Both the position numbers and the translations under genes were made by a program. A stretch of 64,000 nt of DNA from positions 1 through 64,000 of the forward strand of contig NZ_SFCC01000024.1 in NCBI RefSeq assembly GCF_004214935.1, in the 5' to 3' direction. Below are positions 45,215 through 64,000 of this stretch, piece after piece. The notes under the pieces were generated by a model. The model was not told the DNA's origin and made no database searches. It was given only the letters and a program-made list of their open reading frames with translations. The first letter of the stretch is position 1. Every line of letters starts with the position of its first letter. This DNA comes from Amycolatopsis suaedae (lineage in GTDB: Bacteria > Actinomycetota > Actinomycetes > Mycobacteriales > Pseudonocardiaceae).

Positions 45215-45229
45215 GGCGGTACCTCCTTA

Positions 45230-45242
45230 TTGAAACGTCTCA
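45230..45242. promoter_or_regulatory. LacI-type operator in front of rhaR
   Basis: TTGAAACGTCTCA is a near-palindrome of the TGAAACGTTTCA type with a central CG, 15 bases upstream of the LacI gene start and just before its Shine-Dalgarno sequence. It suggests autorepression. Confidence 0.65.
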
Positions 45243-45292
45243 CAGAACGATAACCCATCTGCCGGTTGATCTTCGGCCATTCACCCTGGGGC

Positions 45293-45322
45293 TTGACACG
45301 CGTGACCCCGGTCACGCAGGCT
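45293..45322 (+). promoter_or_regulatory. Promoter of the rhamnose importer operon
   Basis: TTGACA (45293-45298) is a full consensus -35, and CAGGCT (45317-45322) after 18 bases is a plausible -10. The spacer carries the perfect dyad GTGAC-CCCG-GTCAC (45302-45315), a second possible control site distinct from the LacI operator. Confidence 0.5.
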
Positions 45323-45338
45323 GATCCCGCATGTCTGG

Positions 45339-45352
45339 TTGAAACGATTCAA
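45339..45352. promoter_or_regulatory. LacI-type operator in front of the rhamnose operon
   Basis: TTGAAACGATTCAA has perfect outer arms TTGAA/TTCAA with central ACGA. It sits downstream of the promoter and 15 bases before the first gene, where a bound repressor would block transcription. It matches the operator in front of rhaR. Confidence 0.75.
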
Positions 45353-45367
45353 AGACTGGAGCCGCGG

Positions 45368-61367: not shown

Positions 61368-62756
61368 ATGGCGCAGGCGGGTGACGGCGGGCTGCTCGCC
61401 CCCGCGTGGGCGGCGACCGGGGTGGACGCCCTGGCCGACGACGCCGCCTGGGTGCGGGCCATGCTGTCGGTGGAGGCGGCGCTGGCCCGGGCGCAGGCAC
61501 GGCTGGGCGTGGTGCCCGCCGAGGCCGCCGCCGTCATCACGCGGGTGGCAGGCGACGTCCTGCCGCCCGATCTCGCCGACGGTGTCCGCGCCACCGGCAA
61601 CCCGGTGGTCGCGCTGGTCGCCGGGCTCACCGCGGCCGTGCGGGAGCGCGACCCGGCCGCCGCCGAGCACGTGCACCGCGGCGCCACCAGCCAGGACATC
61701 CTGGACACCGCCGCCATGCTGGTCGCGGCGCGGGTGCTGCGCCAGGTCCGCGCGGACCTGGACGCCACCGCGGCGGCCCTGGCCGGGCTGGCCGAGCGGC
61801 ACCGGGACACCCCGATGGCCGGGCGCACGCTGACCCAGCACGCCGTGCCGGTGACGTTCGGCCTGCGGGCCGCGGGCTGGCTGCGGCTCGTGCTCGACGC
61901 GACCGACCGGGTGGACCGGCTGCTGGACGGCGGGCTGCCGGTGTCGCTCGGTGGCGCCGCCGGAACGCTGGCCGGCTACCAGGAGCAGGCGCGTCTTGCC
62001 GGAGCGGGCGGCGCGTCCGGCCTGCCCGGTGCGGTGGCGGCCGAACTCGGCCTGGCCGAGCCGGTGCTGCCCTGGCACGGCCTGCGAACGCCGGTCGCGG
62101 ACCTGGCCGCCGTGCTCGCGTTCACCGGTGGCGCGCTGGGCAAGATCGCCGCCGACGTGCAGGTGCTGTCCCGGACCGAGATCGGCGAGGTCGCCGAGGA
62201 GACCGCGCCGGGCAGGGGCGCGTCCTCGGCCATGCCGCAGAAGCGCAACCCGGTGTACGCCACGCTGGTCGCCACCGCCGCGCGGCAGATCCCGGCGCAG
62301 ACCCTGGTGCTGTGGCAGTCGATGCCGGCCGAGGACGAGCGATCGGCCGGGGCGTGGCACGCGGAGTGGCAGCCGCTGCGGGAGGCGCTGCGGCTGACCG
62401 GGGGAGCGGCCGCCAACGCCGAGCGGCTGTGTGCCGGCCTGCGGGTGTTTCCCGACCGGATGCGGGCCAACCTCGGGCTCACCGGTGCCGCCGTGGTGTC
62501 GGAGCGGATCAGCGCCGTGCTGGCGCCGGTCGTCGGCAGGCAGGCGGCCAAACGGTTGCTCGCCGAGGCCGTGGCGGCGGAGGGGGACCGGGCCTTTCCC
62601 GAGGTGCTGGCCGAGCTGGCCGCCCGGGACGGCCACCGGATCGACGCCGGCTGGATTGCCACGCTGCTCGACCCCGCCGCTTACCTGGGCCAGGCAGGCG
62701 ACCTGGTGGATCGGGTGCTGGATTCCTACCACAAGCGCGGAACCGCGCGCGTGTAA
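61368..62756 (+). CDS. pcaB: 3-carboxy-cis,cis-muconate cycloisomerase-like lyase
   Basis: A 462-residue member of the fumarase/aspartase superfamily. The signature is GRGASSAMPQKRNP (with catalytic Ser), and HRGATSQDILDTA and TLTQHAVPVTFG are the other two conserved regions. These fit bacterial 3-carboxymuconate cycloisomerase (protocatechuate path) better than adenylosuccinate lyase. No other protocatechuate gene is in the window, so the pathway link is unproven. ATG 61368 has a -10 box six bases upstream and appears leaderless. Confidence 0.8.
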   Translation: MAQAGDGGLLAPAWAATGVDALADDAAWVRAMLSVEAALARAQARLGVVPAEAAAVITRVAGDVLPPDLADGVRATGNPVVALVAGLTAAVRERDPAAAEHVHRGATSQDILDTAAMLVAARVLRQVRADLDATAAALAGLAERHRDTPMAGRTLTQHAVPVTFGLRAAGWLRLVLDATDRVDRLLDGGLPVSLGGAAGTLAGYQEQARLAGAGGASGLPGAVAAELGLAEPVLPWHGLRTPVADLAAVLAFTGGALGKIAADVQVLSRTEIGEVAEETAPGRGASSAMPQKRNPVYATLVATAARQIPAQTLVLWQSMPAEDERSAGAWHAEWQPLREALRLTGGAAANAERLCAGLRVFPDRMRANLGLTGAAVVSERISAVLAPVVGRQAAKRLLAEAVAAEGDRAFPEVLAELAARDGHRIDAGWIATLLDPAAYLGQAGDLVDRVLDSYHKRGTARV

Positions 62757-62912
62757 GAAAATCAATTTTAACTCGACGGTAAACAGGACCGTGGTCCGTA
62801 TTCGAGTGGCGACAAAGCTCTGGGTATTCCGCCGTGAACCCATTGTTCACCGAAGGTTGGCGGCCATCATTACTTGCCGGCCGGTTAGCTGAGGCGGTCA
62901 CTGGGTCGGCTG

Positions 62913-62941
62913 TTGACGCCCCGGACCCGCTACGGTAGTGA
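62913..62941 (+). promoter_or_regulatory. Candidate promoter in the GC-poor region
   Basis: TTGACG (62913-62918) and TAGTGA (62936-62941) are 17 bases apart, a good housekeeping-type promoter. The first sizeable downstream frame is the LmbU-type gene about 690 bases away, so the transcript would have a long leader. Confidence 0.4.
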
Positions 62942-63374
62942 AACCTGTTCGTGATCGGGACGGCTGCCCTTCGGTCGGCCCGGCCGTGGCTCGCTGACCT
63001 GCGGTTATTCCGCTTCTGGATCGGTTCCAGATTAATCGTCGGCCTGGCATTAGTCGAAATACATCGTTATCGTCGTCGTCAGATGAACTTCGTCTCATGT
63101 CAAGAGCGGTCGTCGCCCTTGACTCGCACGTGGGTCGAGATCCGCCTTCTGGGCTAGTGACAGTGGTTCGCAGCGTGATAATGTGGCTTAGGTTGCAGCT
63201 AACGACAAATTCGCTGCGACCGATGGGGTGAGTTTGAGCATGGGGGTCGTCTCTCGCGGTGTTCGGCGGTCTGTCGACCGTACGGATGTGAGCCGCTCTC
63301 ATGAATGTGTGTGAATGTTGTTTTGCGTGAATTAATGCGGTTGTGGGTTGTCCCGGCTGGTGAAGGGAGGTTTC

Positions 63375-63434
63375 GTGGTGTCTGACCGGAGCGAGCGCGG
63401 CGGCGGTGGTGCCGGGGCGCGTTCCGGCGGGTAG
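63375..63434 (+). CDS. Possible 19-residue leader peptide
   Basis: GTGGTG at 63375 is preceded by GAAGGGAGG four to eight bases upstream, the best ribosome-binding site in this gap. The frame encodes VVSDRSERGGGGAGARSGG and ends in TAG. It lies about 200 bases before the LmbU-type gene and may be a leader or upstream control frame. No other evidence supports it. Confidence 0.3.
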   Translation: MVSDRSERGGGGAGARSGG

Positions 63435-63637
63435 TACCCGGTTGTTCTGGTGGCATGAGCGCGGTTTGGCCGATCACAACGTCGTGTGGGGCTGATCGGT
63501 TGCCGAGGGTGGATACCGAGTTCTGGAGCCGGCGTAGGGCTGTGGGGCCTGATGCCGGCGCCGAAGGAGTCGCGCCGGCCACGTACTGACCGTCGCGCCC
63601 GTGGGCGGGCGGACGGATTGCATCACAAAACTGGGAT

Positions 63638-64000
63638 ATGGGGGCTGATGTGGGAAACTCGAGCAATGCCGAAAGTAAGACCAACCGGAGCGCGCCGAGA
63701 CTGAGCGTGCCACCACGGCAGGGACCTCCGATGCCGCCCGCGCCTCGCTCCGAGGCACGGCCGCTGGCCAAGGGGGCGCTGACCAGGCGGACCAGCCTGA
63801 GTCTGCCGCCGTCGATTCCAATGGACGAGTGGAGTCAGATCGGCCGGCAGATCCACGCTATCTCCGACTCCTCCGCCTGGTGGCTCGGGGACTGGCTCAT
63901 CTACGGCCAGTCGCAGTACCCGGACCGCTACAAGCGGGCCATCGAGGAAACGTCACTGGATTACCAGACGCTGCGCAACTACGCGTGGGTCGCGCGGCAG
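63638..64000 (+). CDS. LmbU/NovE-family transcriptional regulator (5' part)
   Basis: The first 121 codons are visible; the gene continues past the window edge. After a variable, Pro/Ser-rich head of about 50 residues comes the conserved start of the LmbU family: LSLPPSIPMDEWSQIGRQIH, then ISDSSAWWLGDWLIYGQ and PDRYKRAIEETSLDYQTLRN followed by YAWVARQ. LmbU activates lincomycin biosynthesis, and NovE, CloE and HmtD are relatives in other antibiotic clusters. The start is uncertain: ATG 63638, GTG 63650 (GGGGG five bases upstream), GTG 63707 or ATG 63731. Confidence 0.85.
   Translation, partial: MGADVGNSSNAESKTNRSAPRLSVPPRQGPPMPPAPRSEARPLAKGALTRRTSLSLPPSIPMDEWSQIGRQIHAISDSSAWWLGDWLIYGQSQYPDRYKRAIEETSLDYQTLRNYAWVARQ

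Follow-up and report, generated by a model that had tools for sequence, protein, structure and literature searches.

Among the known systems closest to the regulator considered here is LmbU of Streptomyces lincolnensis, which regulates the lincomycin cluster and belongs to the same family of helix-turn-helix proteins (NF038070). In the available portions of PMC6510168 and PMC10763038, the site of LmbU is given as CGCCGGCG, and a scan of S. lincolnensis with a 10-bp form of the site returned 176 matches (PMC10763038, in the same portions). A dimer joined by a C12 disulphide has been described for LmbU, and its residues 1-57 form an N-terminal auto-inhibitory region that is said to mark cluster-borne members. 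A second point of comparison is SACE_5599 of Saccharopolyspora erythraea, an LmbU homologue encoded outside clusters that affects an antibiotic in trans, altering erythromycin yield and sporulation according to the excerpts seen of PMC3878487 and PMC6510168.

The window, the whole stretch of 64,000 bp that was analysed, comprises bases 1-64000 of contig C16 (65,466 bases) in an assembly of 7.54 Mb and 32 contigs. The 5' half of an LmbU-family regulator gene lies at its right edge (63638..64000, forward strand) and continues to contig position 64387; once the 1,466 bp that follow the window are included, the complete gene (L009:638-1387) gives a product of 249 residues with no stops. By its computed profile score the protein is firmly placed in the family, the full-length sequence reaching 235 bits on NF038070 against a cut-off of 125 (residues 51-222) and the 121 residues visible in the window scoring 122.9 bits (1.3e-35), just below that cut-off. 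The initial annotation had named an LmbU-type regulator from two peptides, both of which lie in frame from the ATG at 63638, and the full-length match bears it out. This ATG was taken as the start, although the start codon is not certain and the gene caller preferred 63821; with it, approximately 50 residues precede the NF038070 domain, and the alignments of most homologues to the protein begin only at about residue 25-47. The protein keeps 32 of 33 columns that are invariant among 30 relatives and all 28 near-invariant ones, and its helix-turn-helix recognition region, TSLDYQTLRNYAWVAR, is the commonest form among 95 LmbU rows (24 rows). No solved relative of LmbU was found, the best PDB match having an E-value of 0.058. 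The gene has a GC3 of 0.87 and, unlike lmbU (PMC3878487, in the part consulted), no TTA codon; since the protein has no cysteine at all, the C12 disulphide dimer of LmbU is impossible for it.

The gene is preceded by an AT-richer leader or intergenic region of 881 bp (62757..63637, 60.2% GC). Among 881-bp windows taken at 10-bp steps the mean GC content is 72.5% (sd 2.5%), the minimum of 59.8% falls in this region, and outside it only one window start (29291) is below 66%. The sharply lower GC of about 880 bases that had been pointed out is therefore real, but its singularity is one of length: other gaps between gene calls are equally AT-rich and shorter (1333-1619, 58.2%; 45215-45367, 57.5%), so the region stands out as the longest AT-rich stretch of the window. 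In related clusters, the regions upstream of LmbU have a similar make-up (n = 17 by gene calls, 218-1171 bp, GC 0.597-0.705). The region has no Rfam match, and a scan of it for promoters and terminators gave about as many sites as shuffled sequence.

To the left of the regulator gene lie an aspartase/fumarase-superfamily lyase gene (61368..62756, forward strand) and, further left, a PhoU-like gene, a phosphate-transporter gene and an apparent sensor/response-regulator pair; to the right, the last 1,466 bp of the contig hold only the rest of the gene, a convergent AHSA1/ArsR pair and then a dispersed repeat, in which the contig stops. No biosynthetic cluster was seen by eye among the gene calls of the 64-kb window, and a search of the flanks for remnants of cluster genes gave no clear ones, only weak matches such as chance would produce, including an LmbU-like stretch (26-30%) spanning the end of the lyase gene. 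Among the matches listed, in no relative does an LmbU lie close to the match for the lyase or for AHSA1, and the smallest distance within such a pair on one contig is about 117 kb (G066). The AHSA1/ArsR pair of relatives is next to or one gene away from an oxidoreductase gene in four of the five loci fetched, and no LmbU or cluster-type glycosyltransferase was found in those five stretches. The dispersed repeat is present at both ends of contig C16 (L009:2257-2466, at the contig end, and bases 72-394) and probably caused the assembly to break there; its family includes a perfect 24-nt hairpin (GTGAAGGGGGCTCTCACGG type). Attempts to find the adjoining contig failed by two routes: the terminal sequence matches 87 places in the genome, with many of the matches partial or on both strands, and the homologues of the oxidoreductase gene linked to AHSA1/ArsR in relatives are not at contig ends.

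LmbU genes are present in 19 of 80 genomes of the genus, the source genome included, which has only two: the window gene and a second on contig C4 (C4:140912-141619). Genes were called around LmbU in 94 loci, with homologues of C4 cluster genes marked, and a tree of 95 rows was computed (98 LmbU rows, less four that were identical, with the window protein). In this tree the window LmbU is sister to seven LmbU that sit at cluster edges (support 100/90), from Kibdelosporangium, Actinosynnema sp. ALI-1.44, genome G137 and two Amycolatopsis. The stretches fetched around the seven contain 2-7 glycosyltransferase genes each. Five of the seven adjoin a run of such genes, while the two Amycolatopsis members (L021, L140) have deoxysugar genes next to them and two glycosyltransferases within the part that was fetched; the A. 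rifamycinica cluster, over the 40 kb that were read, has three glycosyltransferases and homologues of the ammonia-lyase, AMP ligase and RmlA. The recognition region of the window LmbU is identical to those of six of the seven branch-mates and to that of the C4 LmbU, and an LmbU of a saccharomicin-type cluster is up to 74% identical to it over the tree columns (G062). In all seven, LmbU has cluster genes to one side and a DUF6545-protein homologue to the other, whereas the window gene has neither. Pfam was applied to three proteins, two of which carried the provisional labels XRE and ImmA, and matched only the third, as DUF6545; DUF6545 homologues on contigs C15 and C7 were discarded as cluster-type neighbours, being weak matches (33% and 31%). 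The C4 LmbU groups with those of G067 and G062 (100/98). An approximately unbiased (AU) test kept a tree in which the window LmbU joins this C4/G067/G062 type (p 0.45), so the description of the gene as a displaced cluster-edge copy is not secure; the pairing of window and C4 LmbU alone was rejected only marginally (p 0.0445), which disfavours recent duplication of the C4 gene as its origin to that extent. Five genomes have a second LmbU, from another branch of the tree, in the same glycosyltransferase cluster, 21-26 kb away and on the opposite strand (L177/L178, L179/L180, L181/L182, L183/L184 and L016/L019).

The C4 LmbU lies inside a saccharomicin-like cluster (C4:99042-141619) with 16 close glycosyltransferases, namely 15 in tandem (C4:112929-132298) and one more at C4:107102, plus a divergent one at C4:102229; by computation this is the only glycosyltransferase array of saccharomicin type in the genome. 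The cluster also encodes an aromatic amino-acid lyase, RmlA, an AMP-binding protein, an aminotransferase, a 2,3-dehydratase, an epimerase and a C-methyltransferase. The sam region of Saccharothrix espanaensis has ten glycosyltransferases, matching the count published for the sam cluster and fewer than on C4, and an LmbU at its edge that is more distant (48% identical to the C4 copy). The C4 counterparts of sam-region proteins align with them along most of their length at 47-83% identity (lyase 81%, RmlA 83%, aminotransferase 83%, 2,3-dehydratase 77%, C-methyltransferase 79%). No NCBIfam ammonia-lyase model reaches its cut-off on the C4 lyase, so the word tyrosine in its name would rest on the sam8 homologue. 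The hydroxylase Sam5 and decarboxylase Sam29, genes for the caffeoyl-taurine aglycone that we assign by our own reading to sam-region proteins of 495 and 140 residues, have no match in C4:86000-190000, and for this reason the cluster is called saccharomicin-like only; judging from its genes, the product is probably a saccharomicin-like oligosaccharide with a different aglycone. The initial annotation had expected the window to end at the first gene of a secondary-metabolite cluster. That position is not borne out by this assembly, in which no biosynthetic gene is seen on either side of the regulator (lyase and phosphate transport to the left, AHSA1/ArsR and the contig end to the right); the broader association with such clusters survives in its seven kin at the edges of glycosyltransferase clusters, while the genome's own cluster of this type is on C4 and not beside the gene.

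An 18-bp palindrome, YGTCYCGCYRGCGRGACR, is common to the promoters of saccharomicin-type clusters; at its core is the CGCCGGCG described for S. lincolnensis. The palindrome was derived from paired words in the promoter regions of nine clusters, which gave CGTCCCGCCGGCGGGACG (23 sites), and the published 10-bp site TCGCCGGCGA agrees with the variant in which position 5 is T and position 14 is A. The core alone is uninformative, with 26 occurrences in the window against 21.7 expected and none to the right of 57435. At a score of at least 18, sites are present in 74 of 90 LmbU loci (sugar-cluster genes 27/29, other 28/36, NRPS 19/25) and, when the 11 training loci are left out, in 63 of 79, some of which are close kin of training loci. 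At the same score no site was found in 66 lyase/AHSA1 neighbourhoods, which overlap in part, or in 49 distinct loci checked to be free of LmbU (383,741 bases). Intergenic sequence makes up 17% of the scanned DNA, yet 97 of 120 sites are intergenic and in promoter position, with 19 in coding sequence and four between convergent genes; the median distance from a site to the nearest start is 157 bp. Among 390 genomes of the family, the exact operator was counted in 55 of 81 with LmbU (and so is missing from 26) and in 6 of 309 without (Fisher p 8e-40, a value inflated by shared ancestry, the genomes not being independent by descent); here a genome without LmbU is one without a match to the window protein, and a remote LmbU could be missed. 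Two or more copies were found in 36 genomes with LmbU and in none without, and a reversed control pattern was seen in 14 genomes, of which one has LmbU. Among the matches listed for 34 LmbU genomes, 63 of 74 sites are on the same contig as an LmbU gene and within 60 kb of it, and the sam region itself has four sites that score at least 15. From this co-occurrence the 18-bp palindrome is predicted to be the LmbU operator. Within the collection of papers searched, none contained the 16-base spellings of the longer palindrome that were tried, and the longer site may be in print elsewhere.

The source genome contains five exact operators, of which four are between genes of the C4 cluster: at C4:106326, between the aminotransferase gene and a small gene that is presumably acyl-carrier-like; at C4:108375, before membrane-protein genes; at C4:111681, before a reductase gene and the glycosyltransferase array; and at C4:140723, between RmlA and the C4 LmbU. 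The fifth, at C5:18795, is inside an ORF named PKS-like from its sequence and is probably there by chance. Allowing one mismatch adds 11 sites, two of them upstream of C4 cluster genes (C4:100430 and C4:135192) and nine on contigs other than C4, one of which (C3:17227) is between convergent genes. Operators form a group at C4 and nowhere else in the genome. No site scoring at least 13 was found in the window and none scoring at least 10 in the last 2.5 kb of contig C16. If the window protein binds the site of its family, the positions of the operators thus make the C4 cluster, and not the neighbouring genes, its most likely target. The operator is also absent from the upstream regions of the seven branch-mates themselves (L013 judged from the matching region of L179), and in all five clusters with two LmbU only one of the two has an operator in its own upstream region.

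The explanation that we lean towards, with slightly more confidence than doubt, is that the window LmbU is a displaced cluster-edge LmbU and works in trans, jointly with the C4 LmbU, on the C4 cluster. The window LmbU would have descended from the LmbU usual at one edge of saccharomicin-type clusters, and its gene would since have been displaced, so that in this assembly, unlike that of LmbU in S. lincolnensis, it is apart from a cluster. Both LmbU would bind the palindromes in the C4 promoters, and binding would switch the C4 cluster on. We infer the binding at C4, the activation and the displacement; since the C4 cluster has its own LmbU, the window LmbU may be redundant or inactive. It is unlikely that the gene marks the edge of a second biosynthetic cluster left unassembled beyond the contig end. 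The contig does end at 65466 in a dispersed repeat, the seven nearest LmbU do sit at cluster edges, and the first genes of contigs C3 and C9 resemble biosynthetic clusters (by eye and partly by BLAST), so that contig ends which were not joined may hold cluster DNA; but what comes first beyond the gene is the AHSA1/ArsR pair, near an oxidoreductase in four of five relatives and in all five without LmbU or a cluster-type glycosyltransferase, the genome has no second array of saccharomicin type, and neither the window nor the final 2.5 kb of the contig has an operator.

A role as a stand-alone pleiotropic regulator, serving development or more than one cluster and not specially linked to C4, is less probable again: SACE_5599 offers a precedent for it (in the portions seen of PMC3878487 and PMC6510168) and the nine one-mismatch operators away from C4 would suit it, but the window LmbU differs from SACE_5599 in that its nearest kin are cluster-borne LmbU of a single, saccharomicin type of cluster, and the genome's only operator group is at C4. 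Least probable of all is a non-functional relict of a cluster that was lost or transferred. All the usual neighbours are missing beside the gene and its own upstream region lacks the operator, as would befit a relict; against this, the frame is intact, the family-invariant residues are nearly all conserved, GC3 is 0.87, the flanks hold no clear remnants of cluster genes, and an operator is likewise absent upstream of the seven branch-mates. Compared with the displaced regulator acting on C4, a wider proposal, that the whole family uses a single conserved 18-bp operator in clusters of many kinds, that LmbU pairs often run saccharomicin-type clusters and that a departed member controls the 16-glycosyltransferase C4 cluster, is tentative, with doubt somewhat outweighing confidence.

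The window LmbU adds a member to a known family, and its location is unusual; the operator is the more useful result. Many antibiotic clusters contain regulators of the LmbU family. The published LmbU site is of 8 bp only, whereas the 18-bp palindrome sets most LmbU-bearing genomes apart from genomes that lack LmbU, and the regulons of LmbU proteins should thereby become predictable, with a handle for waking silent clusters. The position of a cluster regulator need not mark its target: the targets predicted here are on another contig.

The lyase upstream of the regulator (61368-62756) has as its nearest solved structure the nitrosuccinate lyase CreD (475 bits to PDB 5xny, against 249 bits to PcaB) and scores 597.5 bits on the nitrosuccinate lyase model NF052556, under the cut-off of 650; the name pcaB was dropped in favour of CreD-like lyase. 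No flavoprotein partner for it was seen by eye among the genes called in the window, where the lyase stands alone. In six of ten relatives' loci the lyase homologue adjoins a protein of 620-660 residues, and the one of these that was tested is FAD/NAD-binding (PF13454), a pairing that might be expected of a nitrite-forming pathway. Elsewhere in the genome, stretches resembling PKS or deoxysugar clusters are present at the left ends of contigs C3 (L217) and C9 (L218) and on contig C5 (L239-L240). On C4, just past the LmbU gene and before the next gene (L010:10620-10900), there are short runs of a repeated unit that translates as NVALGxxxxP.
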